Shown here piece after piece: positions 36,321 to 59,964 of a stretch of DNA of 64,000 nucleotides. This DNA is from Ramlibacter tataouinensis. GTDB taxonomy: Bacteria; Pseudomonadota; Gammaproteobacteria; Burkholderiales; Burkholderiaceae_C. Made by a program: the position numbers and the translations under genes. The notes under the pieces were generated by a model that saw only the letters and a list, made by a program, of their open reading frames with translations, had not been told where the DNA came from and did no database searches. How positions within the stretch are numbered: the stretch's first letter is position 1; each line of letters begins with the position of its first letter. The stretch is taken from assembly GCF_027941915.1 (NCBI RefSeq), contig NZ_CP116009.1, positions 3,038,001-3,102,000 on the forward strand, given 5' to 3'.

Positions 36321-36334
36321 GGGGAATCGAAAGA

Positions 36335-38365: not shown

Positions 38366-38369
38366 CACC

Positions 38370-39416: not shown

Positions 39417-41288
39417 ATGTGCGGCATTGCGGGTCTACTGAAGCTGGATGGCTCGACGGTTGACCCTATGGCTGTCGACCGGATGGGGCGCGCGTTGGCG
39501 CACCGCGGGCCCGATGGTGAGGGCAGATATGTCGAAGGCCCGATCGGGTTTGCCCATCGTCGACTCGCAATCATTGACCTCACCCCGGCAGCCGCGCAGC
39601 CGTTCTCGGATCCCAGCGGTCGATTCACGGTCGTCTACAACGGCGAGTTGTACAACTACCGTGAGCTGCGACGGGAACTGATTTCGCTAGGCCGCGTGTT
39701 CCGGACAGCGAGTGATACGGAGGTCCTGCTCGAGGCATTCAAGCAATGGGGTCCTGGAGCCGTCCAGCGATTCAACGGGATGTTCGCGTTCGCAATTTGG
39801 GACCGCGCGCAACGACGTCTCTTCCTGGCACGGGACAGGTACGGAGTGAAGCCGCTGTACACCTTCCACAAAGGAGGCGAATTCTTGTTTGCCTCCGAGC
39901 CCGTGGCGATCACGCAGCATGCCAATGCTGGCTCGGGTTTGGCTGTGGACGGCCTGGTTGAGTATCTGACATTCCAAAATTTCTTTTCGGACAGGACGAT
40001 CTATAGAGACGTCCGGATGTTCCCTGCCGGCTGCTGGGGAAGCATTTCGCCGGAGCAAGGCGAACTTGTTGTCAACCGGTACTGGGACTTCAACTTTGTT
40101 GAGCAACACGAAGTGGGCAGCGAAGCTGAAACGTGCGAGCGTCTGCGCCTACTGCTCAACCAAGCAGTCAGCCGGCAACTGGTCAGTGACGTGGAGGTCG
40201 GCGCGTATCTGAGCGGGGGCATCGACTCCGGTTGTGTGACTGCGCTTGCGGCACGGCAACTTCCCTACCTGAAAAGCTTCACGTGTGGATTTGACCTGCA
40301 CTCGGCAAACGGCATCGAGGTGGCGTTCGATGAGCGAGAGCGCGCGGAGCACATGTCGTACCTTTACAAGACCGAGCACTATGAAATGGTGCTGAAGTCG
40401 GGCGACATGGAGCGAGTCATGCCCAAGCTGATGCGTCACATGGGTGAGCCCCGGGTCGGCCAGTCCTATCCAAACTATTACGTGGCAGGCCTCGCGAGCA
40501 AGTTCGTGAAGGTCGTGCTGACGGGAACGGGCGGCGACGAGTTGTTCGGAGGCTATCCGTGGCGCTACTACACGCCTGAATCGGACGCCGACTTCGACTC
40601 CTACGTCGATGGCTACTATGGATATTGGCAGCGCCTGGTGCCGCCGGAGCTGATGCCGGAACTTCTGGCTCCAGTATGGTCGGAAGCCAAGCACGTCGAC
40701 ACCCGTGACTTGTTCAAGAGCGTCTTCGGTTCGCACCCGGCGCGCCTGCGCACGCGAGCAGACTATGTGAACAGCGCTCTGTACTTCGAGGCCAAGACGT
40801 TCCTTCACGGATTGCTGGTGGTCGAGGATAAATTGAGCATGGCGCACGGCCTGGAGTCGCGAGTTCCCTTCCTTGACAACGATCTTGTCGACTACGCCAT
40901 GACGCTACCGGTTTCCATGAAGCTCGCTGCGCGTCACAACGAGAGAATCGATGAGAACATGGCGGGTCCGAAGACGGAGCAGTTCTTCCAGCAGACTCAC
41001 GACGGCAAGCTGATCCTGCGTCAGGCGGTGGAAGAGTGGATGCCTAAGGTTGTCACGCAAGCGGCCAAGCAAGGCTTCTCCGCGCCGGATGCCAGTTGGT
41101 TCCGCGGCGAGAGCCTTGAGTACGTCAAGCGTTGTCTTCTTCGACCAGCCGCAAAGATCAACGAGGTTCTCAATCCCGCCGTTGTCGCAAGGCTGTTGGA
41201 TGAACACATGACCGGCCAGCGCAACCGGCGCCTTTTGATCTGGTCGTTGCTCTGCCTGGAGCACAGCGACTTCGAGGCAGCGACCTGA
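39417..41288 (+). CDS. Asparagine synthetase-like amidotransferase (copy 1)
   Basis: A 623-residue glutamine-hydrolysing AsnB-family protein. Cys2 (MCGIAGLL) is the glutaminase nucleophile, HRGPDGEG and YNGELYNYRELR complete that domain, and SGGIDS (residues 266-271) is the ATP-pyrophosphatase loop of the synthetase domain. In surface-polysaccharide loci such proteins often convert uronic acid carboxyls to amides. Alone it could make asparagine, but this is the first of three copies within 21 kb, next to uronic-acid genes. It is coupled by a one-base overlap to an epimerase. Confidence 0.9.
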   Translation: MCGIAGLLKLDGSTVDPMAVDRMGRALAHRGPDGEGRYVEGPIGFAHRRLAIIDLTPAAAQPFSDPSGRFTVVYNGELYNYRELRRELISLGRVFRTASDTEVLLEAFKQWGPGAVQRFNGMFAFAIWDRAQRRLFLARDRYGVKPLYTFHKGGEFLFASEPVAITQHANAGSGLAVDGLVEYLTFQNFFSDRTIYRDVRMFPAGCWGSISPEQGELVVNRYWDFNFVEQHEVGSEAETCERLRLLLNQAVSRQLVSDVEVGAYLSGGIDSGCVTALAARQLPYLKSFTCGFDLHSANGIEVAFDERERAEHMSYLYKTEHYEMVLKSGDMERVMPKLMRHMGEPRVGQSYPNYYVAGLASKFVKVVLTGTGGDELFGGYPWRYYTPESDADFDSYVDGYYGYWQRLVPPELMPELLAPVWSEAKHVDTRDLFKSVFGSHPARLRTRADYVNSALYFEAKTFLHGLLVVEDKLSMAHGLESRVPFLDNDLVDYAMTLPVSMKLAARHNERIDENMAGPKTEQFFQQTHDGKLILRQAVEEWMPKVVTQAAKQGFSAPDASWFRGESLEYVKRCLLRPAAKINEVLNPAVVARLLDEHMTGQRNRRLLIWSLLCLEHSDFEAAT

Positions 41289-42175
41289 TGGCCAAGCTGC
41301 TGGTCGTTGGAGGAACCGGACTGATCGGCTCCGAGGTTGTCCGCCAGGCAAGGACACTGGGACATGTGGTCACGATGTTGTCCCGCGACGCAAAGGGCAT
41401 TGATGGTCGCGTCATCGTCGGTGACTTGAGGCAACCGCATAGCCTAGAGGGTCTGTTGCGTGGAGAGCACTTCGACGCGATCGTGTACCTTGCGCAGGCC
41501 GCAAGTCACAACGCTTTTCCAGGCAATGCCACGGATGCGGTGGCAGTCAACATCTCTGCGCCCGTTGCGCTGTGCCAGTGGGCGGTGAACAGCGGTTGCG
41601 ACCGATTCATCCTCGGCTCATCCGGGGGAATCTGCGGACCCGCGCACGGGCTCGAGCGAATCACCGAGAGTTCGGGCCGGCAGCCGCCAGAGAGGCTGAA
41701 TTTCTATCTCTCGACCAAGGCGCGCTGTGAGGAGTTGCTCGTGGCGTTCGGTGGCCTGCTGAAAATAGATGTACTGAGGTACTTCTTCGTGTATGGCCGG
41801 ACACAGAGGCCAGACTTCCTCTTTCCCAGGCTGATCGAAAAGATGAAGTCGGGACAAGCCATAGAACTCGCGGGGGGCGAAGGGCCTTGGCTGAATCCGA
41901 TCCATGCCAGAGATGCCGCCTCGCTGACCATTCGCGCCCTTGAGTCTTCTGTGGGAGGGGTGACCAACGTGGCCGGCCTGGAGGACATGACGTTGCGTGC
42001 GTTGGTCGGCGCGCTCGAGCAAGCTGTCGGGACTCGTGCGAAGGTCGTCCCCACCGATGAGCGGCCTCCTCGCTTCCTTGCGGACACAAGCCTAATGCTG
42101 AAGAAGCTGGGTACGCCCGAAATCACGCTGGACAAAGGGATCGCCATGTCATTCGCTCAGGAGCCAAGAGAGTGA
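41288..42175 (+). CDS. NAD-dependent epimerase/dehydratase family protein
   Basis: A 295-residue extended SDR with VGGTGLIGSEV at the N-terminus, GSSGGICG at the catalytic serine position, and Tyr-x3-Lys as YLSTK. It has lower similarity to standard sugar epimerases than the gene at 38370. Start and stop codons overlap both neighbours (one and four bases), so it is co-translated with AsnB and the methyltransferase. It probably modifies the same nucleotide sugar. Confidence 0.82.
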   Translation: MAKLLVVGGTGLIGSEVVRQARTLGHVVTMLSRDAKGIDGRVIVGDLRQPHSLEGLLRGEHFDAIVYLAQAASHNAFPGNATDAVAVNISAPVALCQWAVNSGCDRFILGSSGGICGPAHGLERITESSGRQPPERLNFYLSTKARCEELLVAFGGLLKIDVLRYFFVYGRTQRPDFLFPRLIEKMKSGQAIELAGGEGPWLNPIHARDAASLTIRALESSVGGVTNVAGLEDMTLRALVGALEQAVGTRAKVVPTDERPPRFLADTSLMLKKLGTPEITLDKGIAMSFAQEPRE

Positions 42176-43032
42176 GATTTTGTGGACGCGAGCTGACAAT
42201 TCAGGATAGCTCGGAATCGCTGGCGGTCGAGCAGGTCCGGGAGCGCGGCAGGTGCGGGCAGTTCATGCCTTTTGACGAGCTGCTCCACCTTCTGCGCGAT
42301 CCAATTACAAAAGGGCCGCTTGTTAGTGGAGGCGACCACCTGACGGCCAATGGTCGCGTGTACCCCATTGTGCGAGGCAATCCGCACTTGTTCCCATGTG
42401 AGATGGACCGAGTGAGGGCGGCCCTGTCCCAGCCAGGGTTGCTCGACCGATTCCCAGATCTGCTGCCCATTGAGCAGTACTGTGCCTTCGGCCTCCTGAA
42501 ATCGTCGGGCGCAACTAACCTCGACTACGCGGACCTGTGGTACGGACGGCATCTCCATCGTGCGAGCAAACTCCTGAGCAACGCGCGCGGGACATTTCTG
42601 GATGTGGGCTGCGACGACGCTTTCCTCAGCCGGGGCATGCTTGCAGACCAGGTTCAGTACGTCGGCCTGGAGCCTTCAGCCGGCTCTTCCGAGGGGCTGC
42701 GGGTTTGCGGGCTGGGTGAATTCCTGCCCTTCGCGGACCAAAGCTTTGATGGCGTCGGCTTCCAGACGTCGTTAGACCATGTATTCGACTACCAGTTGGC
42801 GCTAGCGGAGGCGCGCAGGGTGCTCCGCCCAGGTGGGCGCCTGTATCTCGCTACCTTGTTGTGGACCGACAAGGCGCAACTGTATACGGACACTGCACAT
42901 TTCCATCATTTCAGGGGCGCGCAAGTCGAGGCAGTCCTGGCCGACGGATTCGAAGTTGAGCAAGTCGATGCGTACGTCTGGAAGGGAAATACCCATCGAT
43001 TCGGCGTCTACATGACTGCGATTAAGAAGTGA
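42172..43032 (+). CDS. Class I SAM-dependent methyltransferase with N-terminal Trm112-like segment
   Basis: A 286-residue protein. Residues about 35-75 (LLHLLRDPITKGPLVSGGDHL...VYPIVRGNPHLFP) resemble a Trm112-type segment with its cysteines missing. The methyltransferase core follows (FLDVGCDDAFLSRG, EARRVLRPGGRLYL). Motif I lacks the usual second glycine pair. GTG at 42172 overlaps the previous stop as GTGA. Target unknown; probably a glycan or sugar nucleotide. Confidence 0.8.
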   Translation: MRFCGRELTIQDSSESLAVEQVRERGRCGQFMPFDELLHLLRDPITKGPLVSGGDHLTANGRVYPIVRGNPHLFPCEMDRVRAALSQPGLLDRFPDLLPIEQYCAFGLLKSSGATNLDYADLWYGRHLHRASKLLSNARGTFLDVGCDDAFLSRGMLADQVQYVGLEPSAGSSEGLRVCGLGEFLPFADQSFDGVGFQTSLDHVFDYQLALAEARRVLRPGGRLYLATLLWTDKAQLYTDTAHFHHFRGAQVEAVLADGFEVEQVDAYVWKGNTHRFGVYMTAIKK

Positions 43033-43036
43033 GTAG

Positions 43037-43756
43037 ATGGAAACGCAGAACTTCACGGAAGAGGAATATCGGCGGCTGCTGGAGCTTACCCAGCGGCAAT
43101 ATGCCTTCGCCTCGTACTTGACTGCTCCGGAGCAGCCGCACGTCATACTGCGCCATGACCTCGATACCTCCTTGCAGCGCGCTCTGGCGCTCGCCAAGAT
43201 CGAAGCTTCTCTCGGCATTCGGGCAACGTATTTCCTGTTTCCAAGAAGCCTTTACTACAACCTGCTCCATCCCGAAAGCAAGGCGGTTGTTCGCCAAATC
43301 CTTGATTTTGGCCATGCAATCGGCCTGCATTTCGATGTTTCCATGGAGTACGAGCCAGAAGAGCTGGCGCCGCTTCTCCAGCATGAGAAACGGCTACTGG
43401 AGATCGAGTTCGGAAGGTCCGTCGAAGCCGTCAGCTTCCATTTGGCGGGAGACTTTCAGTCCCGACTTCCGTCCGAGCACGTGGTATGTGGGATGGTAAA
43501 CGCCTACTCCGAGCAGATGCGGCTTGGCTACAAGTACCTTTCGGACTCAAATGGTGTCTGGAGATTCGAGAACTGGGAAGAGATTCTTGATTCGTCGAAG
43601 TACCCACGGCTGCAAATCCTCGTGCACCCGGAATGGTGGACCCCGCAATCGCTGACGCCAAAGCAACGCTTGCAACGCGCCATCGATGGGTACGCAAGGC
43701 GGATGGGAGGTTGGTACGACGAGGTGACAAGGGCCTATGGACGTCCCAACTATTGA
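43037..43756 (+). CDS. Polysaccharide deacetylase-fold protein
   Basis: A 239-residue protein with the NodB-type metal motif HDLD (residues 40-43), then IRATYFLFPRSLYY, IGLHFDVSMEYE and a C-terminal LVHPEWW. These match carbohydrate esterase 4-like proteins found in O-antigen loci. There is no signal peptide, so it would act in the cytoplasm on a nucleotide sugar or lipid-linked sugar, perhaps removing an N-acetyl group that the following GNAT could replace with another acyl group (inference). Confidence 0.78.
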   Translation: METQNFTEEEYRRLLELTQRQYAFASYLTAPEQPHVILRHDLDTSLQRALALAKIEASLGIRATYFLFPRSLYYNLLHPESKAVVRQILDFGHAIGLHFDVSMEYEPEELAPLLQHEKRLLEIEFGRSVEAVSFHLAGDFQSRLPSEHVVCGMVNAYSEQMRLGYKYLSDSNGVWRFENWEEILDSSKYPRLQILVHPEWWTPQSLTPKQRLQRAIDGYARRMGGWYDEVTRAYGRPNY

Positions 43757-44261
43757 AGAAGGTTCGGTGGTTCTTCGGCCGCTGACCGACGCGGATTCCG
43801 ATGCGCTTTTCCGTTGGATCAACGACCATGACACCGTCGTTTTCAATGCGCCATTCGCGCCGGTGGAGCGTGAAGCTCACGAACGCTGGTTCGAGCGCGT
43901 CCGCGCTTCAACGAGCATTGCGATATTCGGGATCATGGAGCGACACACCAGAGCGCTTGTGGGCAGTTGCCAGCTCCTGAACATCTCGCCTCTGCACCGG
44001 AGTGCGGACCTGCAGATCCGGCTTGGCGAGCCGGCGGCACGAGGCCGAGGTCTGGGAACGGACGCAGTACGTGGACTTGTTCACTTCGGCATGACCCAGC
44101 TGAAATTGCACCGTATCGCACTCACGGTTCGAGCAGACAACGAGCGAGCGATCCGGGCTTATGTGAAATGTGGCTTCCAGAGAGAAGGGCTGTTGCGAGA
44201 AGCCGCCTTTATCGAAGGCCGTTTCGTGGATCTGATCGGCATGGCAGTGCTCGCGTCATGA
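43737..44261 (+). CDS. GNAT-family N-acyltransferase
   Basis: A 174-residue RimJ/RimL-type acyltransferase. VVLRPLTDADSDALFRWIND opens the fold, LGEPAARGRGLGTDAVRGL contains the acyl-CoA-binding R/Q-x-x-G-x-G/A loop, and RADNERAIRAYVKCGFQREG is motif B. The ATG overlaps the deacetylase gene by 20 bases; a GTG at 43767 would remove the overlap. Next to a deacetylase-fold gene it probably acylates a free amino group on a sugar. Donor unknown. Confidence 0.85.
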   Translation: MDVPTIEEGSVVLRPLTDADSDALFRWINDHDTVVFNAPFAPVEREAHERWFERVRASTSIAIFGIMERHTRALVGSCQLLNISPLHRSADLQIRLGEPAARGRGLGTDAVRGLVHFGMTQLKLHRIALTVRADNERAIRAYVKCGFQREGLLREAAFIEGRFVDLIGMAVLAS

Positions 44262-44956
44262 GCCGCGTCACAGCCATTCACCAGCCGAACTTCTTCCCCT
44301 GGCTTGGCTACTTCGACAAGATCGCGCAATGCGATGTCTTTGTCGTGCTGGACGACGTCCAGTACCAGAAAACCGGCAGCAACTGGTCGAATCGGGTGAA
44401 GCTGCTTTTGGCGGGCGAGCCGCGCTGGGTCACGGCGCCCGTCCGCAGGCCGGCGCACGGCACGGCGAAGATCGATGAACTCTCCTGGGCGCAGGAGCCC
44501 TGGCGCGAGAAGTTGATGCGAAGCCTGACCATGAACTATGGCAGTGCCCGCTTCTTTCGGGAGACCATGGAGCTGATCGAGCCACTGGTGCGCAACGAAG
44601 AGCCGATGCTTGCGGCGTACAACCTGCGTGCTATCCGGGCCATCTGCGAAGCGCTCGGCCTGCAGCGGAGTTTCGTGCTTTCCTCCAGCTTCCATGTTGA
44701 GACCGCATCGAATGAGCGCCTGATATCGCTGTGTCGGCACGTGGGGTGCGACATTTACCTCACCGGTGGCGGCGCGCAGGACTACCAACAGGACGAGCTG
44801 TTCGTGAACGCGGGCATCCAGGTCCGCCACCAGGATTTCCAGCATCCGCGCTATCCGCAGGCAGGCTGCGGCGACTTCGTCCCTGGTCTGTCGGTCATCG
44901 ACGCGCTCATGAATTGCGGAATCGACGGCACAAGAAAGGTGATGGGAGTTGCATGA
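44258..44956 (+). CDS. WbqC-family protein
   Basis: A 232-residue protein of the WbqC family, recognised by IHQPNFFPWLGYFDKI at the N-terminus, LDDVQYQKTGSNWSNRVKL, and YLTGGGAQDYQ. The family recurs in O-antigen and amino-sugar loci but has no settled reaction. ATG at 44258 overlaps the GNAT stop as ATGA. In this operon it may work with the AsnB, deacetylase and GNAT proteins on an N-acyl side chain. Confidence 0.85.
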   Translation: MSRVTAIHQPNFFPWLGYFDKIAQCDVFVVLDDVQYQKTGSNWSNRVKLLLAGEPRWVTAPVRRPAHGTAKIDELSWAQEPWREKLMRSLTMNYGSARFFRETMELIEPLVRNEEPMLAAYNLRAIRAICEALGLQRSFVLSSSFHVETASNERLISLCRHVGCDIYLTGGGAQDYQQDELFVNAGIQVRHQDFQHPRYPQAGCGDFVPGLSVIDALMNCGIDGTRKVMGVA

Positions 44957-45002
44957 CGACTGCTGCACGCTCCCGCACGGCGCGAAGGACGCCACTCCAG
45001 TC

Positions 45003-46691
45003 ATGAAGCAATGGGCACGCTGGTGCAGCGCAAAGCTGAAGAAGGCCGCTGCTGCGCTGCAAGGCTTGGCGGCCCCGGTGCTGAAATCGGTGGCACAGCC
45101 GGCCGTCCGTGTCGTCGAGGCGTCGGCTAGGCGTGCTCTGCGGCGGCTCGAGGCCATGCAGGCCGACCAGATGAAGGCCTTGGAAGGACACGCGGAAGTC
45201 CTGATGGACAAGCTGCACCGTACCGTAAGCGGCCAGGTGGCCTTTACGACGGGCCATGCGCACCTGCTGGGCGAACTGCAGCGCGCCAAGGCGCAGAAGG
45301 ATTCTCGCCTGCTGCCCAATCTTGATCTCTCCGAGCGCGTCCGATCCATCGTGCGCAAGCACGCCGGTTTGCCCCCCGTTGTGACAGGTGACGAGGGCAA
45401 GAACGATCTGACGACGGAGTTGCGGTTCCTGTGGGACAACAGCGCCTTGGTCCGCCAGATGCTCGAGCTCTGTGCCGGACGACGCGTGCTGTACTCGGGG
45501 CAGTGCTACTACAACCATTGGTATCTCTCGCGCGAATTGCGCAAGCTTGGCTGGAGGGCGGATGTGCTGAACTGGGACCCGAATCCGGCCTCCCAGATCT
45601 ATTACCACGGGGAGGACTTCCGCTATGTCGGGGTCCCCGAAGAAGATTTGCAGATGCTGCGATTCTTCGTCCAGGCACTCTACGGCTACGACGTTTTCCA
45701 CTTCAGCAATGCCCACGGAATCAGCTTCGGGTCGGCACTTGCATCCATCGTGACACCGCTGTTTGGCGAGCGCGGCGAGATCTACCTGTTGAAGGAACTC
45801 GGGAAGAAGGTCGCCTACACGAACAACGGCTGTCTCGACGGCGTGTCGCAGACTGCGTTCTCGCGGTGGGGGCCGGATTCCGTGTGTGCGATTTGCCGCT
45901 GGCGAAATGAACCTGCGGTGTGCAGCGATGAGCTCAATCTGCGATGGGGCCGATTTCGCAACTCAGTGAGCGACTACCAGTGCCTGCTGGGAGGCAATCG
46001 GGTCGACTTCAACGACGATCCGCGGGTCCACGAATCGCCCTGGGTGTACTGCCTCGATCCGGATATGTGGAAGCCGGGCCTCGACATCCCCGAACCGTTC
46101 CGGATCGAGCGGCGCTCCGAAAAGACCCTGCTGCTCTACCACGCGATCGGGAACAAGCAGGACCGCACCACCGACGAAGGCGTGAACATCAAGTCCTCCC
46201 ACGTGTACCTTCCGTTGCTACAGAAGCTCAGGGACGAGGGTTGGGACCTGGAGCTGCTGGAGCCGACCGGCGTCCCCAACAAGGACGTTCGTTTCATCCA
46301 GGCGCAGGCGGATATCTTCCTGGAGATGTTGACCTTCGGCTGGTTCGGCGCGAATGCGCGTGAAGCCATGATGCTGGGCAAGCCCGTCGTCTGCTTCATC
46401 CGGCCTGAATGGCTGGACAGTCTGCGGGAGGAACTGCCCGATTACGCGGATGAGTTGCCAATCGTGAGCGCGACTCCGGAGACCGTCGAGAGCGTGCTGG
46501 TCGATCTGATGGGCGACGAAGGCAAGCGCCGCGAGATCGGCCGCCGGAGCCGCGAATTCATGCTGCGCTGGCACTCCGCGCCGGTCGCGGCAGCCAAGTT
46601 CGAGGAGATCTACGGCCGGCTGATTGCCGGCGAGCCGCTGCTGCGCAAGACGGCGCATGGGGCTGGGCGGACGGCTCGGCTGGGTGACTAG
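45003..46691 (+). CDS. Glycosyltransferase-like protein, GT-B fold
   Basis: About 562 residues from ATG 45003; an in-frame TTG at 44949 would add 18 residues. The N-terminal 100 residues are Ala-rich helices (KKAAAALQGLAAPVL, VRVVEASARRALRRLEAM). The middle and C-terminal parts read like a glycosyltransferase family 1/4 GT-B fold: YSGQCYYNHWYLSRELRKLGWRADVLNWD, then LLYHAIGNK, WDLELLEPTGVPNKDV, and AREAMMLGKPVVCFIRPEWL near the nucleotide-sugar site. A Cys-rich stretch (SVCAICRWRNEPAVC) sits mid-protein and could bind metal. It is last gene of the low-GC block. Confidence 0.75.
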   Translation: MKQWARWCSAKLKKAAAALQGLAAPVLKSVAQPAVRVVEASARRALRRLEAMQADQMKALEGHAEVLMDKLHRTVSGQVAFTTGHAHLLGELQRAKAQKDSRLLPNLDLSERVRSIVRKHAGLPPVVTGDEGKNDLTTELRFLWDNSALVRQMLELCAGRRVLYSGQCYYNHWYLSRELRKLGWRADVLNWDPNPASQIYYHGEDFRYVGVPEEDLQMLRFFVQALYGYDVFHFSNAHGISFGSALASIVTPLFGERGEIYLLKELGKKVAYTNNGCLDGVSQTAFSRWGPDSVCAICRWRNEPAVCSDELNLRWGRFRNSVSDYQCLLGGNRVDFNDDPRVHESPWVYCLDPDMWKPGLDIPEPFRIERRSEKTLLLYHAIGNKQDRTTDEGVNIKSSHVYLPLLQKLRDEGWDLELLEPTGVPNKDVRFIQAQADIFLEMLTFGWFGANAREAMMLGKPVVCFIRPEWLDSLREELPDYADELPIVSATPETVESVLVDLMGDEGKRREIGRRSREFMLRWHSAPVAAAKFEEIYGRLIAGEPLLRKTAHGAGRTARLGD

Positions 46692-46803
46692 AATCCGGCT
46701 CTTCTTTGCGGTGACGGGAAAGGGGCACCCAGTGCGGTGCGTGCCCGAGCATGCCTTGTACCTGCCTGCATTCACCCCTGACCTCTGACACACGCCCCAG
46801 CCG

Positions 46804-47946
46804 ATGCCGCAACTGGCCGTTTCTGTAGAAGGCATTACGAAGCACTTTCCGAAGGCAGGTCGGCTACGGGTCCGGGAACTGCTCACAGGCTTGCCGCCCG
46901 AGAGGCGCTTCACCGCCATCGATGGCATCAGCCTGGACGTGCCGAAGGGCGAGGTCGTCGGCGTGCTGGGGCGCAACGGCGCCGGCAAGAGCACGCTGCT
47001 GCGGCTGGTCGGCGGGATCTATTCGCCGGATTCAGGCGCGATCGCGCTGAACGGCCATGTCGCGGGCTTGTTCGAGATGGGTGGATTCGGCAACACCCAG
47101 TTGACCGGCCGGGAGTTCGCCAACCGCTATCTGCAACTCTTCGGTGTTTCCCGGGCCCAGCGCGAGGCCGTCGTGGCCGAGGTCCGGGAGTTTGCCGAGC
47201 TGGGCGACTACTTTGATCAGCTGATTCGGACCTACTCGGCCGGCATGGCGGCCCGGCTGTACTTTGCGACAGCAACGGCGATCCCCCATGAGATATACCT
47301 GATCGACGAAATCCTGTCCGTGGGCGACGAGCATTTCCAGGCCAAGTCCTGGGCCCGCATGCGCGAGCGGCTGGCCAGCGGTGCGTCGGGCCTGCTCGTC
47401 ACCCACGACTGGTCGGCCGTGATCCGGCTGTGTCGCGAGTCGAAGGTGCTCGAGCGCGGCCGGATCCTGCTTCAGGGGCGATCGGACCGCGTGGTCGCCG
47501 ACTACCTGCAGCTGCCTCGGCCCGCCGCCGACCGCGCACGGCTGGCTGCCGCGCCGGGTGAGCGGCTGCAGGCGTCGAGCGGTCGCGCGTGCGCCCTCGA
47601 TCTCGAACTCGAGATCCTGGCGCCGGGCCCGGTCGAGCTCGCTGTGTCCATCGAGGCCCTGCAGCTCGGAACGGGTTGGGAGCCCGTCATCCTGACCGAG
47701 TTCCAGCCCGTGGCCAGCTCTCCCGGACGCTACCGGGCGACCGTGCGCATCGAGGCACTGCCACTTCGCGCCGGCGAGTACACCCTGAACGTATTCCTGG
47801 CGACACCGCCGGATTCGTCCGGCGTGCGAGAGACCCTGGATGTGCGTGGTTGGACCTACGGCAACGCGATGACGTTGGCGGTGGACGGCGAGCCCGGAGG
47901 CGGCATTGCGCCTTTCGCGGTGCGCTGGACGGAAGTGGCCCGATGA
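46804..47946 (+). CDS. wzt: Polysaccharide ABC exporter ATP-binding protein (Wzt-like, copy 1)
   Basis: A 380-residue ATPase of the Wzt/TagH export type. Walker A is GRNGAGKST (residues 56-64), the signature is YSAGMAARLYF, Walker B is IYLIDEILSVGDE, and the H-loop is VTHDW. The C-terminal 140 residues form an extra beta-rich domain like the Wzt carbohydrate-binding domain. It overlaps the next ATPase gene by four bases. The preceding 112-base gap has no clear promoter, though composition returns to high GC. Confidence 0.9.
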   Translation: MPQLAVSVEGITKHFPKAGRLRVRELLTGLPPERRFTAIDGISLDVPKGEVVGVLGRNGAGKSTLLRLVGGIYSPDSGAIALNGHVAGLFEMGGFGNTQLTGREFANRYLQLFGVSRAQREAVVAEVREFAELGDYFDQLIRTYSAGMAARLYFATATAIPHEIYLIDEILSVGDEHFQAKSWARMRERLASGASGLLVTHDWSAVIRLCRESKVLERGRILLQGRSDRVVADYLQLPRPAADRARLAAAPGERLQASSGRACALDLELEILAPGPVELAVSIEALQLGTGWEPVILTEFQPVASSPGRYRATVRIEALPLRAGEYTLNVFLATPPDSSGVRETLDVRGWTYGNAMTLAVDGEPGGGIAPFAVRWTEVAR

Positions 47947-49091
47947 TGGCGCTGCACATCCAGGCTGAGCGGCTTGCCAAGGCCTACGACCTCGGACAGG
48001 GCGTTGCCCCCAAGATGGCGCTTGATGGCGTCAGCCTGAACATTGCCGAGGGCGAGCGAGTGGGCCTCATCGGTCGCAATGGAGCGGGCAAGACGACTCT
48101 GCTCCAGCTGGTGAGCGGCATCGCGCAGCCCACCGGTGGGCGGCTGGACGTTCAAGGCCAGGTCACCGCCATCTTCACGCTGGGCATGGGGCTGCGCGAC
48201 GACCTGACGGGCAGGCAGAACATCGAGGTCGAAGGCGAGCTGCTGGGGCGTACCCGTGAGCAGACCGCGGCGCTCGCCGACGACATCATCAACTTCGCTG
48301 AGTTGGGTGAGTTCATCGACCGGCCGGTGCGCACCTATTCGACCGGCATGAAGGCCCGCCTGGCGTTCTCGACGATCGTCCACATCGAGCCGGAGATCCT
48401 GATCGTGGATGAGGCCTTGTCCGTGGGCGACGCTCGCTTCTCGGAGAAGGCAACCGCCAAGATGCGCGAACTGGCCGCGCGTGGTCGGATCCTGATTCTG
48501 GTGTCCCATTCGATGCGCGCCATCCAGGAGATGTGCACGCGCTGCATCTGGATGGACGAGGGCCGGGTGCGGATGGACGGTCCGCCCGCCCAGGTGACGC
48601 AGGCCTACCTTGACGAAGTCCATCGAGCCGACGAGGCGCTGCTTCTCGAACGCTTCCGGCGCGAAGTGACCGACGTTTCAGTGCGCGAGGGATTCCGTGT
48701 GGAGTCCCTCGACATGCTGGGCCACGAAGGCATTGCCGCGCTGTCACTGCAGACCGGAGAGCCGGCTGCCGTGGCCGTGCGCCTAACCGCCCCTGCAGGA
48801 TTGCCGGTGCATGTGAGGCTACGGGTGGAGCGCCTGGACGCGCTGGATGTCCTCGACTCGGGCATGGATCTGGAGCCTGGTGCGGCCGGGCAGCGGGAGC
48901 TCCGGGTCGACTTAGGGTACCTGCCGCTCAATGCCGGCGTGTTCAAGCTGCGGATCGACCTCGAGTGCGACGGGAGGCCCGCGGCGACCCGCTCGACAGT
49001 GTTCGAAGTGCTCAATCCAAACCCGCTGAAGGGAGGCCGACCCATTCTGGTTGTCCCTGCGCGCTGCGACATCACCCCCCTGGCTCCATGA
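47943..49091 (+). CDS. Polysaccharide ABC exporter ATP-binding protein (Wzt-like, copy 2)
   Basis: A 382-residue second Wzt-like ATPase. Walker A is GRNGAGKTT (residues 44-52), signature YSTGMKARLAF, Walker B ILIVDEALSVGDAR, H-loop VSHSM, and a C-terminal beta-rich domain of about 140 residues. Both copies keep all catalytic motifs, so each could be active. Only one permease gene follows, with a four-base overlap, so a heterodimeric exporter is possible. The C-terminal domains differ, which could mean different glycan ends are recognised. Confidence 0.9.
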   Translation: MMALHIQAERLAKAYDLGQGVAPKMALDGVSLNIAEGERVGLIGRNGAGKTTLLQLVSGIAQPTGGRLDVQGQVTAIFTLGMGLRDDLTGRQNIEVEGELLGRTREQTAALADDIINFAELGEFIDRPVRTYSTGMKARLAFSTIVHIEPEILIVDEALSVGDARFSEKATAKMRELAARGRILILVSHSMRAIQEMCTRCIWMDEGRVRMDGPPAQVTQAYLDEVHRADEALLLERFRREVTDVSVREGFRVESLDMLGHEGIAALSLQTGEPAAVAVRLTAPAGLPVHVRLRVERLDALDVLDSGMDLEPGAAGQRELRVDLGYLPLNAGVFKLRIDLECDGRPAATRSTVFEVLNPNPLKGGRPILVVPARCDITPLAP

Positions 49092-49879
49092 CCCTGTTCG
49101 GATTCGATCGCCGCGACGCGGCCACCGTCTGGAATTTCTTTCGGATGTTCCTGCGCGACCGCTTCCTCGGCTCGCGCCTGGGCACCGTATGGGCTGTGCT
49201 CAACCCGGTGCTGATGCTGACCACTTACACCTTTGTGTTCGGTTTCGTCTTCAAGGCGAAGCTGCCGGGTGCGGACACCACGCTGGCCTATGCCACCTGG
49301 CTGATCGCCGGTTACGGTCCCTGGCTGGCTATCAGCGAGTCGCTCAACTCAGCGGCGCAGTCTGTCACCGGCAACAGCGGACTGGTGAAGAACATGGCGT
49401 TCAAGACCGAATGCCTGCCGCTGGCATCCAGCATGCTGGGCCTTGTGCCGCTCTCCATCAGCATCGTGTTCGCACTTGTGCTGCTGACGGTTGACGGCAA
49501 CGCCCCCACCTGGCACGCACTGGCTGCCATACCGGGTGTGCTGCTGAGCTTCGCGTTCCTGGCGGCGCTCGGGGTGGGCCTTGCCGTGTTCACCGTGTTC
49601 GTCCGCGACTTCGCGCTGATCCTTCCCAACCTGCTGTTGATCCTGCTGTTTGCCTCACCCATCTTCTACCCGGTCGAGGCAATGCCGAGTTTGCTGAAAA
49701 ACGTGGCGCAGTGGAATCCATTCTTCTTGATGGCCGAGTTCGTCCGGCAACCGCTGATGTTCCATGTCGTCCCGCACTGGAGCCAGTGGACGTACGTCGC
49801 CGCACTGACGGCGCTCATCGGCAGCTTCAACCTCATCCTGTTCCGCCGCCTCAAGGGCAGCCTTTCCTCCTTGCTCTGA
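49088..49879 (+). CDS. wzm: Polysaccharide ABC exporter permease (Wzm-like)
   Basis: A 263-residue ABC-2 type integral membrane protein with about six hydrophobic segments. FFRMFLRDRFLGSRLGTVWAVLNPVLML is the conserved N-terminal amphipathic gate and first helix; the C-terminal half contains LLFASPIFYPVEAMP, the family's lumen-facing motif. It moves undecaprenyl-linked glycan to the periplasm, powered by the Wzt-like ATPases encoded just upstream. No Wzx/Wzy genes appear in the window, supporting ABC-dependent export. Confidence 0.9.
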   Translation: MTLFGFDRRDAATVWNFFRMFLRDRFLGSRLGTVWAVLNPVLMLTTYTFVFGFVFKAKLPGADTTLAYATWLIAGYGPWLAISESLNSAAQSVTGNSGLVKNMAFKTECLPLASSMLGLVPLSISIVFALVLLTVDGNAPTWHALAAIPGVLLSFAFLAALGVGLAVFTVFVRDFALILPNLLLILLFASPIFYPVEAMPSLLKNVAQWNPFFLMAEFVRQPLMFHVVPHWSQWTYVAALTALIGSFNLILFRRLKGSLSSLL

Positions 49880-49882
49880 CAC

Positions 49883-50707
49883 ATGAAACAAGCTGAGATC
49901 GACGCACAGAACGCCGAGTTCTGGGACACACTGTGTGGAACAAGCCTTGCGCGGATGCTGAACATCGAAGACGGCTCACCGCAGTCGCTGCGCAAGTTCG
50001 ATGATTGGTACCTGGACTATTACCCCTACTTGCTGAGTCACGTGCCGGTCCACGGGATGGGTGGCAAGGACGTGCTTGAGATCGGCCTTGGCTACGGGAC
50101 GCTGTCGCAGAAGATCGCCGAGGCCGGCGCCAGGTACAGCGGCCTGGACATTGCGAGCGGCCCGGTCGAGATGGTCAACTCGCGGCTGACACAGAACGCA
50201 CTGCCGGGGCGGGCCGTCCAGGGCAGCATGCTTCAGTGCCCGTTTCCGGACGAGAGCTTCGATTGCGTGGTCTCGATCGGCTGCTTTCATCACACCGGAG
50301 ACACGCAGCGCTGCCTGGACGAAACCTACCGGGTGCTGCGCCCAGGCGGCCATGCATACCTGATGCTCTATAACCGGTTCTCCTGGCGCCAGTGGAACGA
50401 TTACCCGGCCAAGACTCTTTCGGCAATGACTCGTGAGCTACTCGGCATCCGCGAGAACCCCAGCAGCACCGAAGCTCAGCGCGCCGCCTACGACACCGAC
50501 ACCAGCGGCAAGGCCGCACCCGAGACGCAGTTCTATTCCGTGCGGCAGATTCACCGGATGATGTCGCGCTACCAAAGCGTGAGCTGCACCAAGGAGAACT
50601 GCGACGACGAGGTGCGCAATGGCGTCGTGGTGCGCAAGCGCTCCGAAATGCTCGCCACTCGCGGCCGCAGGTATGGGTTGGACATCTATATCCACGCTGT
50701 GAAGTGA
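49883..50707 (+). CDS. Class I SAM-dependent methyltransferase
   Basis: A 274-residue methyltransferase with motif I VLEIGLGYGTLSQ near residues 65-77, CFHHTGDTQRCLDETYRVLRPGG, and a C-terminal substrate region. It begins four bases after wzm and its stop overlaps the GTG upstream of the next gene. In ABC-exported O antigens, a terminal methyl group can stop chain growth and be recognised by Wzt; this enzyme or its neighbours could make such a cap (inference). Confidence 0.85.
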   Translation: MKQAEIDAQNAEFWDTLCGTSLARMLNIEDGSPQSLRKFDDWYLDYYPYLLSHVPVHGMGGKDVLEIGLGYGTLSQKIAEAGARYSGLDIASGPVEMVNSRLTQNALPGRAVQGSMLQCPFPDESFDCVVSIGCFHHTGDTQRCLDETYRVLRPGGHAYLMLYNRFSWRQWNDYPAKTLSAMTRELLGIRENPSSTEAQRAAYDTDTSGKAAPETQFYSVRQIHRMMSRYQSVSCTKENCDDEVRNGVVVRKRSEMLATRGRRYGLDIYIHAVK

Positions 50708-50715
50708 GAGGCCGG

Positions 50716-53541: not shown

Positions 53542-55427
53542 GCCCCGTGCCTCCAGCTGCCGTCCGCGTGCAGGCCTAGCCATTCGGACAGGCTGATCCA
53601 ACGCCAGATCGCCCAGGAGCTGTCGGATTCGCTGGCCTGATGCGCGTTCCAGGTGGCCTCCAGTGCGGCACGGTCATAACCCGGCACGCCGGACAGGCGG
53701 GTGTCGAACAGGCGATCGCGCCCCCATTCCTTCAGGGGTCCGCGCAACCAAACGTCCAAAGGGGCCGCATAGCCGACCTTGTCGGCCCGCCACTGCACCG
53801 CCGGCGGCAGCAAACCTTCCCCCGCGCTGCGCATCACGTACTTCTGCCAGCCGTCGTGGATCCAGGCCCGGTCCGGCAGCCGGATGCACCAGTCGACCAA
53901 GTCGTAGTCGAGGAAGGGCAGCCGCCCCTCGCGCCCGAAAGCCATCGCATTACGATCCGCATAGCGCAGCAGCTGCGGCAGCGAGTTGTATTGCAATGCC
54001 TCAGCCAGTTGGCGGCGCAGGCGCTGGCCGCGCCGCGGCGGTGGCACCCCCACCTCATACGGGCCAGCGTACAGGCCCGACGGTCGCACAATGGACCGCA
54101 GCAACTGCGGCACCGACATGGCGATCTGGTGATTGAAGCGGCGGCGACTATTGGCGTAGCGGTCACTGGCCACGCGCAGGCGGCTGTTGAACAGCTGCGT
54201 GGTGCGCAGCAGCTCCCGCAGTTGCAGCCGGTCCGCCAAGTCCAGTTGGTGGGTGCGAAAGTAGTACTGATAGCCGGCCAAGACCTCGTCGGCGCCCTGG
54301 CCGTCAAGCAGCACGGTAGTGCGGTGCTCGCGTGCCAGTCGGGCCACGCACCACTGTAGGTAGATCGAGGCGGAAAGGAACGGCTCTTCCTGATGCCAGT
54401 GCAGCAGGCGCGATTCGGCCATCAAGGTGGCCGGGTCGGGCGAAACCGCATGGGGATGCACGCCTGTGCGCTCGACCACCATGTCGATGTACTCGCCTTC
54501 GGAGAGAGTCGGGTCCTGGTCGAAGCGGGCGGAGAAAGTGTGCTGCTCGAAGGCCGCGCCCTTTGTACGCATGTCGGCCAGCGTGCAGACGATCATCGAC
54601 GAGTCGAGGCCGCCCGAAAGACTGCTGCCCACCGGCACGTCGGCGCGCAGGCGCTTGCGGATGCTCTCCTGAAGCAGCTCGAGGAAGCGGTCGGAGGCGC
54701 TCTCGAGGCCCAGCCCGTCGTCGACCTGAGTGTAGTCGGGCGTCCAGTACCTCCACTGGCGCAACAGGCGCGAGTCGGTGTCCAGCAGCAGGGCAGTGGC
54801 AGGGGGTACGCGCCGCACGCCATCGAACAGCGTCGCCTCGCCGTCCTCGTGGTACTGACCGGCGGCATAGCGCTCGAGAGTGCCCGTATCCACTCCCAAG
54901 GCAATGCCCGGGTGCGCCAAAAGGGCCTTTATCTCGGAGGCGAACGCGATCCCACCGCCGGCGGGGCGTGCGAAGAACAGCGGCTTCTCGCCAAAGCGGT
55001 CCCGCGCGATAAAGACCTGCTGGCGCACCTCGTCCCAGACGGCGAACGCGAACATGCCGTTCAGCCTTTGCAGGCAGTCGGGACCCCAGCGCCGGTAGGC
55101 GGCCAGCAATACCTCGGTGTCGCTGCGGGAGCGGAAGGTCTCGCCCTGCGCCTCCAGTTCCTTGCGCAGCTCGACGAAGTTGTAGATCTCGCCGTTGAAT
55201 GCGATCAGCTGGCGCCCATCAGCGCTGGCCATGGGCTGCGAGGCGGCCTCACTGAGGTCCACGATGGACAGCCGCCGGTGCGCCAGCGCCACGCTCATGG
55301 CGGACGTGTGTCGGATCTCGAGGCCATGGCCATCCGGGCCGCGGTGCGCCAGCCGGTCGCGCATGGCAATGACGACGTGATCGGGCAGGTCTGCCCTGGG
55401 GGCGATCATGCATACAAATCCGCACAT
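53538..55427 (-). CDS. Asparagine synthetase-like amidotransferase (copy 2)
   Basis: A 629-residue AsnB-family protein with Cys2 (MCGFVCMI), HRGPDGHG, NGEIYNFVELR, and SGGLDS at residues 271-276. The C-terminal synthetase domain shows GQGADEVLAGYQYYF and FGREGRLPFLDYDLV. It is divergent in sequence from copies 1 and 3 and lies on the minus strand, coupled to a glycosyltransferase. Possible roles are uronic acid amidation or another amide-forming step on the glycan. Confidence 0.88.
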   Translation of the reverse strand: MCGFVCMIAPRADLPDHVVIAMRDRLAHRGPDGHGLEIRHTSAMSVALAHRRLSIVDLSEAASQPMASADGRQLIAFNGEIYNFVELRKELEAQGETFRSRSDTEVLLAAYRRWGPDCLQRLNGMFAFAVWDEVRQQVFIARDRFGEKPLFFARPAGGGIAFASEIKALLAHPGIALGVDTGTLERYAAGQYHEDGEATLFDGVRRVPPATALLLDTDSRLLRQWRYWTPDYTQVDDGLGLESASDRFLELLQESIRKRLRADVPVGSSLSGGLDSSMIVCTLADMRTKGAAFEQHTFSARFDQDPTLSEGEYIDMVVERTGVHPHAVSPDPATLMAESRLLHWHQEEPFLSASIYLQWCVARLAREHRTTVLLDGQGADEVLAGYQYYFRTHQLDLADRLQLRELLRTTQLFNSRLRVASDRYANSRRRFNHQIAMSVPQLLRSIVRPSGLYAGPYEVGVPPPRRGQRLRRQLAEALQYNSLPQLLRYADRNAMAFGREGRLPFLDYDLVDWCIRLPDRAWIHDGWQKYVMRSAGEGLLPPAVQWRADKVGYAAPLDVWLRGPLKEWGRDRLFDTRLSGVPGYDRAALEATWNAHQASESDSSWAIWRWISLSEWLGLHADGSWRHGA

Positions 55428-55451
55428 ACCGGCGAACGACCTTTCCTTGAC

Positions 55452-56774
55452 TCAATGGCCAGTAATGCGCCGCACGAACTGCCGCGCCCGGCGGGCCGCG
55501 ATGCGCACCAAGGGATCATCCAGACGCTCGCGCAGCTCGGCGAACTCCTGGCGCAATTGCCGGGCCTGCGCCTGCATCGGGGCGAGCGCGCGTGCGGCGA
55601 CCTCGTGGTCGTGCGCCATGGCATCGAATTCCTGCGCCGTTGCATGGCCGCAGGGGCGCCCGTCGATATGCAGGCGCTCGGCGTGTCCAAGCACGTCCTG
55701 CACTCTACGTGCATATCTGTACGCAGGGCTGGCGATCAGGACCGAATGGCAAGCGTCGGCCACGGCCTGCGCCGTCGCCGTGTCGTGCAAGGCATCGAGC
55801 ACCACGTCGATGTTCGACCAATCCTTGCGGATCTCGAGGTAGTGGACGCCCGCCTCCATGTCCGGCAGGTACTCGCCCTCCAGCAGGATCTGGCAGGAGC
55901 CGAGCGCGGCCGCTTCGAACAGGCGCGGCGAGATCGCGCTGAAGACATGCCGGCCGTCCTGGCCCGGGAACACTGCGGCCTCGACCTCGTCGAATGAAGC
56001 GTCTGGGTGCTGGCGCAAGTACGCTTCGGCTGCCTCCCGTAGACCGCCATCGGCGTCAAGCAGACTGCTGCCGCTCTCGCTCCCCAAGGTATAGCGCGAG
56101 TCCTGCAGAAACCGGGTCCAGGCCGAGCCGAGCAGGACGTCGCGCGGATCGGTTGACACGTCGATCCCGGCGAGGCCGCGGCCATGTGCAAGCTCGGCGA
56201 AGCAGTCTCCGAGCCGGGCCTTTGCCAGCCCCAGCCGGCCGAACCAGGGCGGCAGGTTTCGTGCGCGGTAGCCCACCAGTACCGACCGGTCGGCGATCGC
56301 AGGGCGCTCCATCCGAGCCAGCTCTTCGTCGACGTAGCCGGTAAGGGCCACGCTTAGGCGACCCGGCTGGCGCGACAGGCGGGGGTACAACGCCTCGTGG
56401 TGTCGCGAACAAACGGTGTAGACATGGTCAACGCGCAGCTCGTCGAGCCAGCGGTCCAGCACATGGGCATGGTCGTAATCGTCTTGAGGAAAGGCGAACT
56501 TCACGGCCAAGTGGTGCGCGAGCCAGGCATAGGCGTCCTGCAGCTCTTCCAACAGGGCGCGAGGCCGAACCCAGCGCCAGCAGAGGAAGGTCCCGTCGAT
56601 CAGCACCAGGTCGAACGGAAACTCGCGCAGCGCCGGCGTGACCGGCGTTGACAGGTCCTGATACAGGTACCGGTGGCCGGGCGCATGGCGCTGGAAGCTT
56701 TGCAGGTGGGCAACGCTGGTCCCGCGGGCGAGGGACAGATCGGGGCCCAGCCCGTGCAGCACAAGAATGTTCAT
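55452..56774 (-). CDS. Glycosyltransferase-like protein, paralogue of the gene at 50716
   Basis: A 440-residue protein starting MNILVLHGLGPDLSL. Shared blocks with the protein at 50716 include QDDYD, ALTGYVDEE, VLVGYRARNLPPWFGRLGLAK, LGSESGSSLLD, SPRLFEA, LEGEY and HYLEIRKDWSN. The C-terminal 80 residues differ: a charged helical, probably coiled-coil segment (ALAPMQAQARQLRQEFAEL) ending in a basic tail. No standard family is recognised. It is first gene of the reversed three-gene block. Confidence 0.72.
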   Translation of the reverse strand: MNILVLHGLGPDLSLARGTSVAHLQSFQRHAPGHRYLYQDLSTPVTPALREFPFDLVLIDGTFLCWRWVRPRALLEELQDAYAWLAHHLAVKFAFPQDDYDHAHVLDRWLDELRVDHVYTVCSRHHEALYPRLSRQPGRLSVALTGYVDEELARMERPAIADRSVLVGYRARNLPPWFGRLGLAKARLGDCFAELAHGRGLAGIDVSTDPRDVLLGSAWTRFLQDSRYTLGSESGSSLLDADGGLREAAEAYLRQHPDASFDEVEAAVFPGQDGRHVFSAISPRLFEAAALGSCQILLEGEYLPDMEAGVHYLEIRKDWSNIDVVLDALHDTATAQAVADACHSVLIASPAYRYARRVQDVLGHAERLHIDGRPCGHATAQEFDAMAHDHEVAARALAPMQAQARQLRQEFAELRERLDDPLVRIAARRARQFVRRITGH

Positions 56775-57104
56775 TGGAAAGACGGCGCTGCGGTACGCGC
56801 TGCGGCGGGAAGGCGTGCCGCAGGCTGGATTCTACCGATGGGCTGAGGGATAGGCTGTGCTGCGCCTCGCCTTTTCCCGGAGTCGCGCCTCGCGCTCCAT
56901 AGCCTGCGGATCGCCCTTGTCCGGACGCAGTTACCTGCGCACGCGCTCACCTCGACCGGCCGACGGGCTGCTGGAAGTTCGGGTGAGCCGAGAGCCGCTG
57001 TTCAGCCGGCTTTCGGCGGAGGTGGGACGGCGTGTTAGGCTCAGCGCCCATCGGGCATTGCACCGGCTCGACGGGGAGATACGGGGTCTGGCTCTCCTGC
57101 TTCG
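56775..57104. other. Intergenic region between divergent genes (330 bases)
   Basis: Separates the reversed glycosyltransferase block from the methyltransferase at 57105. It must hold promoters for both directions. I see no convincing -35/-10 pair, hairpin terminator or repeat. Short open frames here are GC-driven and have no recognisable product. Confidence 0.6.
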
Positions 57105-58043: not shown

Positions 58044-58059
58044 ATCTTCGCTGATCACT

Positions 58060-59964
58060 ATGTGCGGAATATTTGGCGCGCTGGGTGCGGGCAATCGATC
58101 CGTCCAGTCCGTAACCAAGGACGTTCATTGCGGGCTGGATGCCATCCGTCATCGCGGGCCGGACGGTCGATCGATCTGGGTGTCCGATGACGGTCTGGTC
58201 GGCCTCGGCCATGCGCGTTTGGCAGTCATCGACCTCGCCACCGGCGACCAGCCCATGCACAGTGCCTGCGGACGCTGGAGCATCGTGTACAACGGCGAGG
58301 TCTACAACTACCTCGAGTTGCGGCAGGAGCTGGGCGGCGAAGGCTTCCGCACCACCAGCGACACCGAAGTGATCCTGCGCGCCTACATGCGCTGGGGTCC
58401 CGGCTGCGTCACGCGGCTTCGCGGAATGTTCGCCTTCGCCATCTGGGATTCGAAGGAGCGCAAGCTCTTCCTGGCACGCGACCGCTTCGGCATCAAGCCG
58501 CTGTACTGGGCCCGCACCCGCGCCGGCTTTTTCTTCGCCTCCGAGATGAAGGCGCTGCGGCCCTTCCTGGACGAAGGGCGCGTGAATAAGGCCGCACTCT
58601 CCGACTATTTCTCGTTCCAGTTCTGCCTGGGCGACAAGACGCTGCTCGATGGCGTCAGCCAGCTGCCGGCCGCGCACCACGCGCTGGTGGCGCCGGGCGA
58701 GGCGCCGCGCCCGCAGCGCTACTGGGAGGTGCAGTACGACATCGACTTCGACCACAGCGAGAAGTGGTTCACCGAGCGGCTGCGCGCGCTGTTGGACGAT
58801 TCGATCCGGATGCACCTGCGAGCGGACGTCGAGGTGGGCAGCTATGTCAGCGGAGGCATCGACTCCAGCCTGGTGGCGGCACTGGCCCGCGAGCAGCACC
58901 CCGAAGGTCGTTTTCAGGGCTTCAACGGCCGTTTCACGGACGGCCCGGAGTTCGACGAGTCTCACTACGCGCGTGCCCTCGCGGACGAACGCGACCTGCA
59001 GCTGCACGTAGCCGACATCGGCGAGCAGGACTTCGTGGACAACATTCGCCAGGTGATCTGGCACCTGGACCAGCCCACCGCCGGCCCGGGTTCCTTTCCG
59101 CAGTACATGGTGTCGAAGAAGGTGCGCGAGCACGTCAAGGTCGTGCTCGGCGGGCAGGGCGGGGACGAGATCTTCGGCGGTTACGCGCGCTACCTGGTCG
59201 CGTACTTCGAGCAGTGCATCAAGGGCGCCATCGAGGGCACGCTGCACAACGGCAATTACGTCGTCACGTACGAATCGATCATCCCGAACCTCGAAAGCCT
59301 GCGGCAGTACAAGCCGATGATCAGGGAGTTCTGGGCCGAGGGGCTGTTCGAGGAGCGCGACCGCCGCTACTGGCGCCTGGTCAACCGCGCCAACACCTTT
59401 GGCGACGCACTGGCGCCCGGATCCATCGACCGTGATGCCACGTTCGCCGAGTTCCAGCAGATCTTCTGGGGCCAGAACGTGGGCAAGGAGTCGTACTTCG
59501 ATGCCATGACGCACTTCGACTTCAAGACGCTGTTGCCGGCGCTGCTGCAGGTCGAGGACCGCATGGCGATGGCGCACGGCGTGGAGTCGCGCGTTCCGTT
59601 CCTGGATCATCCGCTGGTTGAATTCGCGGCAACGATCCCTGCCGACGTGAAGTTCCAGAACGGGGAGTTGAAGCGCTTGCTGAAGCACGTGTTCGCGGCC
59701 AAGCTGCCAGCCTCGATCAAGGAGCGAAAGGACAAGATGGGGTTCCCGGTGCCTCTGACGCTTTGGCTGCGGCGCAAGGGCCCGGCCGCGGAGTTCGTGC
59801 GCGATGTGTTCTCCAGCCGGGCGGCCCGTGAGCGCTCGTACCTGGCTCGCCCTGTCGACCTCGACCACATTCTGTCCGGCCAGAGCGTGTACAGCCGGAA
59901 CCTGTGGGCTTTGCTGAGCCTGGAGCTTTGGCAACAGGCGTTCCTCGACGACCCGGTTGCCTGA
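58060..59964 (+). CDS. Asparagine synthetase-like amidotransferase (copy 3)
   Basis: A 634-residue AsnB-family protein: Cys2 (MCGIFGALG), RHRGPDGRS, YNGEVYNYLELR, SGGIDS (residues 264-269), GGQGGDEIFGGYARYL and AHGVESRVPFLDHPLVEF. Position directly before three epimerase genes mirrors Bordetella O-antigen loci, where an AsnB-like protein is thought to convert a diacetamido-hexuronic acid to its amide. That makes this copy the best candidate for uronamide formation here. Confidence 0.9.
   Translation: MCGIFGALGAGNRSVQSVTKDVHCGLDAIRHRGPDGRSIWVSDDGLVGLGHARLAVIDLATGDQPMHSACGRWSIVYNGEVYNYLELRQELGGEGFRTTSDTEVILRAYMRWGPGCVTRLRGMFAFAIWDSKERKLFLARDRFGIKPLYWARTRAGFFFASEMKALRPFLDEGRVNKAALSDYFSFQFCLGDKTLLDGVSQLPAAHHALVAPGEAPRPQRYWEVQYDIDFDHSEKWFTERLRALLDDSIRMHLRADVEVGSYVSGGIDSSLVAALAREQHPEGRFQGFNGRFTDGPEFDESHYARALADERDLQLHVADIGEQDFVDNIRQVIWHLDQPTAGPGSFPQYMVSKKVREHVKVVLGGQGGDEIFGGYARYLVAYFEQCIKGAIEGTLHNGNYVVTYESIIPNLESLRQYKPMIREFWAEGLFEERDRRYWRLVNRANTFGDALAPGSIDRDATFAEFQQIFWGQNVGKESYFDAMTHFDFKTLLPALLQVEDRMAMAHGVESRVPFLDHPLVEFAATIPADVKFQNGELKRLLKHVFAAKLPASIKERKDKMGFPVPLTLWLRRKGPAAEFVRDVFSSRAARERSYLARPVDLDHILSGQSVYSRNLWALLSLELWQQAFLDDPVA

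Follow-up and report, generated by a model that had tools for sequence, protein, structure and literature searches.

Four AsnB-like proteins of a Ramlibacter tataouinensis glycan locus are candidate amidotransferases for different 2,3-diacetamido-uronic acids

A surface-glycan locus of Ramlibacter tataouinensis carries four AsnB-like genes, whose products probably amidate uronic acids, each specialised for a different 2,3-diacetamido-uronic acid. The locus lies in a 64,000-nucleotide stretch (the window), positions 3,038,001-3,102,000 of a genome that consists of one contig of 4,466,211 bases. The computed evidence comprises gene content, clades, residue changes, an association with neighbouring pathway genes, and the lack of any need for an asparagine synthetase. 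An initial annotation had placed three AsnB-family genes at 39417, 55427 (minus strand) and 58060. All three are borne out as intact genes, each beginning Met-Cys and each with an SGG(I/L)DS loop; the glycan locus holds four copies, however, as the last starts 127 bases past the final base of the window.

Copy A: 39417-41288, plus strand, AsnB-like protein of 623 amino acids, Thr at the position of E. coli Glu-348
Copy B: 53538-55427, minus strand, AsnB-like protein of 629 amino acids, Gln at 348, between two glycosyltransferase-like minus-strand genes
Copy C: 58060-59964, plus strand, AsnB-like protein of 634 amino acids, Gln at 348, candidate L-GalNAc3NAcA amidotransferase
Copy D: 64127-66010 in extended window coordinates (L008:2127-4010), outside the window, full-length AsnB-like protein of 627 amino acids

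The Pfam matches of A, B and C (GATase_7, E 5e-45 to 8e-49; Asn_synthase, E 1e-76 to 2e-93) show that their AsnB-family content is not due to chance. The genome has five full-length matches to NCBIfam TIGR01536 at 1e-60 or better, namely A to D and a fifth copy, E; two more Pfam hits are short and score low (25.6 and 20.3 bits). Copy E (L010:7158-8948) lies about 190 kb off and adjoins a sugar-transferase-like frame, with pseudaminic-acid-type genes and another WbqC-like gene nearby. Pairwise identity among the five is 30-38%. The copies of the glycan locus represent four separate, old lineages. Local tandem duplication is ruled out as their origin, since the nearest relatives of A, C and D are in other genomes and B forms a separate long branch.

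The catalytic residues of AsnB-type enzymes are conserved in all five copies, while position 348 is altered. We aligned 125 sequences and use E. coli AsnB numbering with Met removed. From 133 open reading frames (ORFs), nine were set aside for lack of a recognised Cys start or for short length, and one (L014) was returned in trimmed form. A row required a single ORF of at least 480 amino acids with SGGxDS; four loci gave no row (L042, L047, L053 and L086), and in two (L030 and L066) the second copy alone was kept. Copies A to E all retain Cys-1, Arg-49, Asn-74, Gly-75, Glu-76, Asp-98, SGGxDS, Asp-351, Glu-352 and Lys-449. By these residues and by their domains, recognised with Pfam for A, B and C and with TIGR01536 for D and E, they are predicted to be AsnB-type class II glutamine amidotransferases. 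None reaches the cut-off of 816.9 bits of TIGR03108, the XrtA/PEP-CTERM amidotransferase family (350-479 bits for A to E, and 528.5 for WbqG of E. coli O121).

Glu-348 marks the true asparagine synthetases of E. coli and human, and none of the five copies has it. Copy A has Thr here; B, C and D have Gln, and E shares Asp with WbqG. The human counterpart is Glu-364, which has the same spacing in Ser-Gly-Glu-x-x-Asp-Glu, and the human variants E364A and E364Q show no activity when given aspartate, ATP and ammonium chloride (PMC6748925). A non-acidic residue at this position thus counts against asparagine synthesis by A to D.

Copies A to D belong to one group that lacks an acidic residue at 348. 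This group has 42 rows, with Q in 31, T in seven and other residues in four. It was recovered in a tree made without the columns around 348 (support of 95 in the Shimodaira-Hasegawa-like approximate likelihood ratio test) and again, at 98/98, in a more careful tree of 49 rows that kept those columns. Within the latter, A falls into a clade of 11 rows (100/100) and C into one of 15 rows (100/99), of which the wbm-type part, C1, has nine rows (100/99). B and D share a group of 16 rows (100/98), in which D and three relatives are joined at 100/100. Eight rows outside the 42-row group also lack an acidic 348, so the change is not unique to it. Orthology of A to D with WbqG is rejected, given their separate group. 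The background to the initial annotation, that AsnB-like proteins of O-antigen loci amidate uronic acids, therefore carries over as an analogy of role and not as orthology, because WbqG (WbpS type) sits in a different branch.

The clades of A and C are locked to different pathway genes across distant taxa. For each AsnB-like row, we scored the presence of seven pathway genes at a distance of up to 6 kb, using 124 rows with E. coli AsnB left out; the loci were retrieved by similarity to the AsnB copies, and L097 alone was retrieved through wbmF. The wbmH or wbmF gene is found beside all nine C1 rows (7/7 after removal of L097 and the window locus) and beside none of the six other C rows, the 11 A rows or the remaining 82. 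SDR1, a short-chain dehydrogenase/reductase (SDR) that adjoins copy A, is present at 60% identity or more beside 10 of the 11 A rows, 0/15 C rows and 0/82 of the rest. In the B/D group, wbmH or wbmF is seen in 5/16 and SDR1 in 2/16, in loci that also hold a C1 copy or an A copy, respectively. C1 loci come from Jacksonbacteria, Holospora, Rhodospirillaceae and Legionellaceae, among others, and A loci from Bradyrhizobium, Bosea and an Ignavibacteria metagenome-assembled genome, among others. Recurrent pairing of a B/D-group copy with another AsnB was seen in many loci but is not claimed as a result, as most of these were fetched through the partner gene.

Pathway genes for uridine diphosphate (UDP)-uronic acids directly adjoin A and C, whereas D lies beside a 2-epimerase gene and B shares only the locus with them.

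33386..37465, plus strand, wbpA-wbpB-wbpD-wbpE-like genes, UDP-GlcNAc3NAcA pathway
38370..39359, plus strand, SDR1, extended-SDR epimerase, probable C4 epimerase, adjoining copy A
60093..61031, plus strand, WbmH orthologue (SDR), PDB 2q1w, E 2.9e-158
61028..61969, plus strand, WbmG orthologue (SDR), PDB 2pzk/2pzl/2pzm, E 9.7e-138
61966..63051, plus strand, WbmF orthologue (SDR), PDB 2pzj/2q1s/2q1t/2q1u, E 7.3e-138
63051..64000, extending to 64139, plus strand, WbpI-like UDP-sugar 2-epimerase, TIGR00236 above cut-off, with copy D next (13-base overlap)

The wbp names were assigned from gene order and pathway logic, and the predicted roles are UDP-GlcNAc 6-dehydrogenase (wbpA), 3-dehydrogenase (wbpB), N-acetyltransferase (wbpD) and aminotransferase (wbpE). 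The wbpA-like gene is above the cut-off of NCBIfam TIGR03026; the other three have family matches below cut-off. SDR1 is GalE/TviC-like but below cut-offs, with PDB matches to 6dnt, WbgU and WbpP, and its relatives adjoining copy-A relatives are 61-79% identical. We take 2q1w to be WbmH, 2pzk/2pzl/2pzm to be WbmG, and 2pzj/2q1s/2q1t/2q1u to be WbmF. Orthologues of all three thus stand together here, as in the Bordetella wbm-type L-GalNAc3NAcA pathway. The structures of the Bordetella proteins have been reported, and they are proposed to convert UDP-D-ManNAc3NAcA to UDP-L-GalNAc3NAcA (PMC2279256).

These observations suggest a model in which the locus would make an ABC-exported surface glycan from several 2,3-diacetamido-2,3-dideoxy-uronic acids. 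Each enzyme would release ammonia from glutamine at its N-terminal Cys site and channel it to the PP-loop site, where ATP would activate the C6 carboxylate of one sugar nucleotide to give a uronamide. The loss of an acidic 348 would fit substrates without the charged amino and carboxyl groups of aspartate. Copy C would amidate the UDP-L-GalNAc3NAcA made by WbmH, WbmG and WbmF; amidation of L-GalNAc3NAcA by this copy is well supported. It is likely that copy A acts on the WbpA/B/D/E product together with SDR1, probably after C4 epimerisation. The matching of D (perhaps to the D-manno form) and of B to a 2,3-diacetamido-uronic acid each is tentative. These gradings are our own judgement. We infer the substrates, a reaction on the nucleotide sugar rather than the polymer, and the final amide pattern. 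Thus, the earlier suggestion that the copies act on different sugar acids is favoured by the clades, the neighbour lock and the altered pocket, while the case for D is weak and that for B is conjectural.

Several points weigh against dedication of each copy to its own uronic acid. To our knowledge, no enzyme of the non-acidic-348 branch has been assayed. Position 348 is Asp in WbqG, the example with an experimental link; uronate amidation can thus do without the non-acidic change, which by itself does not show such an activity. WbqG also sits in another branch, closest to a Chloroflexi row and to one of the three copies of a same-family genome (G001). Within the B/D group, copy B forms a long branch that has no clear orthologue, and its neighbours are glycosyltransferase-like genes only. 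The adjacency of D to the 2-epimerase gene is not conserved, as D relatives in two loci (L020 and L124) are away from wbpI; this weakens a one-to-one link between the two. More generally, an association between neighbours does not prove a substrate. Finally, a single asparagine-synthase gene accompanies two amidated residues and one unamidated residue in the Bordetella b-Cool locus (PMC12407052), so the number of amides can differ from that of the genes.

It is highly improbable that any of the copies serves the cell as a true asparagine synthetase and is in the glycan locus by coincidence. All copies score above the cut-off of TIGR01536, named “asparagine synthase”; however, so does WbqG (459.8 bits), and the label is therefore unspecific. 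Besides Gln or Thr at 348, the asparagine supply of the genome argues against such a role: in a genome search, AsnA was not found and no asparaginyl-tRNA synthetase (AsnRS) was above cut-off (best 88.6 bits vs 342.6), while GatB is clearly present. Organisms with GatB and without AsnRS or AsnA make Asn-tRNA by transamidation of Asp-tRNA. Asn-tRNA should be made in this way here, with no AsnB-like copy needed for asparagine, and auxotrophy is not expected even if all copies were lost. The asparagine-auxotrophy test proposed in the initial annotation would thus be uninformative and would not discriminate. Nearly half of the same-family sample also lacks a copy: TIGR01536 is matched at 1e-60 in 104 of 200 genomes and in none of the other 96. 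Three of the 200 (G000, G046 and G066) have five matches.

Two further explanations were weighed. The copies could overlap in specificity, with any copy amidating any uronic acid and the set kept for dosage or as leftovers of cluster shuffling. In favour are the lower third-position GC in the centre of the locus, suggestive of a cluster put together from separate parts, and the association of one AsnB with several amides in the b-Cool locus. We regard it as unlikely, however, since distant separate clades with clade-specific neighbours kept across phyla point to specialisation, and all four frames are intact. There is a somewhat greater, still low, chance that some copies, B and D foremost, make another amide, for example on a substituent of the glycan (amino acid or acyl), or use an amine in place of ammonia. 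This would fit the diversity of AsnB-type enzymes, the hydroxyamidotransferase (7ylz) that C matches best in the PDB, the presence of a GNAT and a WbqC-like gene in the locus, and the lack of a sugar-nucleotide gene next to B. Nevertheless, all copies keep a full glutaminase site, which favours ammonia as the nitrogen source, and no dedicated amine-donor pathway was recognised. Dedicated uronate amidation remains the reading that we prefer.

Loci with several AsnB-like genes are known from other taxa. The earlier premise that one locus rarely needs more than one amidotransferase is not general: there are three wbpS genes in psc1 of Rubrivivax gelatinosus (PMC3684757), three asnB genes in one cluster of Helicobacter canadensis (PMC2823697) and two copies in X. 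citri (PMC2883993). The Rubrivivax and Helicobacter clusters resemble the window locus in this multiplicity. A genome of the same order and another family (G547) has A with hyp43037-GNAT-WbqC-hyp44949-wzt as a block on one contig, and C with wbmHGF and a B/D-group copy on a second. G001 combines A and D with a WbqG-type copy within 16 kb; neither genome has all four copies. C occurs with two B/D-group copies in about 12 kb in G938, and C and D are adjacent in G158. AsnB-like pairs at about 3.2 kb spacing are seen in several genomes of the family, including tandem pairs with one Asp and one Val at 348 (L120 in G174 and L125 in G066).

The proposed activity is that of WbqG (E. coli O121) and WbpS (P. 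aeruginosa O6), AsnB-type proteins of O-antigen loci that are proposed to turn a UDP-uronate into a uronamide. WbqG shares the catalytic residues of A to D outside 348, but its locus has one AsnB-like gene, and its sugar is GalNAcA rather than a 2,3-diacetamido acid. AsnB-like proteins of other bacteria lend support by analogy: deletion of PGN_1234 in P. gingivalis turns a uronamide into the acid (PMC7468200), and an H. pullorum wbpS mutant loses the HexNAcAN step (PMC6025236, where the results say HexNAcAN and the discussion HexNAcA). The Bordetella wbm locus has wbmH, wbmG, wbmF and ABC export in common with the window locus, in which copy C lies beside wbmH and copies A, B and D are additional. 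In Bordetella, the periplasmic enzyme WbmE removes amides from uronamide-rich O chains (PMC3507681). A WbmE-like deamidase (PF01841) has no match in the window locus and two in the genome, both far off; with PF01841 absent from the locus, the amides of this glycan may stay in place.

The locus also has genes that fit export of the glycan by an ATP-binding cassette (ABC) system.

46804..49879, plus strand, two Wzt-like ATPases and one Wzm-like permease (ABC_tran, ABC2_membrane), ABC export of glycan

From 33.4 kb, the order is wbpA, wbpB, wbpD, wbpE, methyltransferase, SDR1, copy A, second SDR, methyltransferase, hyp43037, GNAT, WbqC, hyp44949, two Wzt-like, Wzm-like, methyltransferase and GTx1, followed by a minus-strand group (GTx2, copy B, GT4) and then methyltransferase, copy C, wbmH, wbmG, wbmF, 2-epimerase and copy D. 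Beyond copy D are glycosyltransferase-like genes and a WecA-like initiating enzyme. Intergenic gaps are mostly below 60 bases or overlaps. Third-position GC is about 0.67-0.85 for genes in 37478-56774 vs 0.92-0.95 in the flanks, which suggests that this middle part was acquired. The tandem Wzt-like pair (wzt1, wzt2) is also present in G547.

GTx1 (50716-52074, plus strand) and GTx2 (55452-56774, minus strand) are related glycosyltransferase-like proteins with Pfam matches below cut-off; neither has an NCBIfam match, and GTx1 has no PDB match. Their relatives (E 1e-30 or better over 45% of length) were found, among the loci searched, only in those with a wbm-type C1 copy (7/8 outside the window). 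They are candidate transferases for L-GalNAc3NAcA(N). The genes hyp43037, GNAT and WbqC stand in a row (43037-44956); the trio recurs in G547 and in part in other copy-A loci. While hyp43037 has no significant family match, it shows by eye an HD-type, deacetylase-like motif. By likeness to VimE/VimA, the trio may attach an acyl or aminoacyl group.

The non-acidic-348 branch and the lock between clade and pathway are new, while multiplicity alone has been published. Neither such a branch nor a clade-to-sugar rule was found in the literature searched, which excluded most subscription journals. AsnB-like genes of glycan loci are easily named asparagine synthase, as TIGR01536 labels even WbqG. The change at 348 and the lock together offer a cheap separation of likely glycan amidotransferases from asparagine synthetases, and a way to predict the amide-bearing sugar. 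A strain such as this one, which should need no asparagine synthetase, is also a clean background for testing such enzymes. It is possible, at somewhat less than even chances, that the whole branch is dedicated to 2,3-diacetamido-uronic acids, with sub-clades for each stereoisomer (A with SDR1, C with WbmHGF, B/D with others). Sequence alone could then reveal the amide pattern of many uncharacterised O-antigens, and one cell could make up to four different uronamides from one locus. The charge of a surface glycan is altered by uronamides, and its recognition by antibodies may be affected too, as suggested for one P. gingivalis epitope (PMC7468200).

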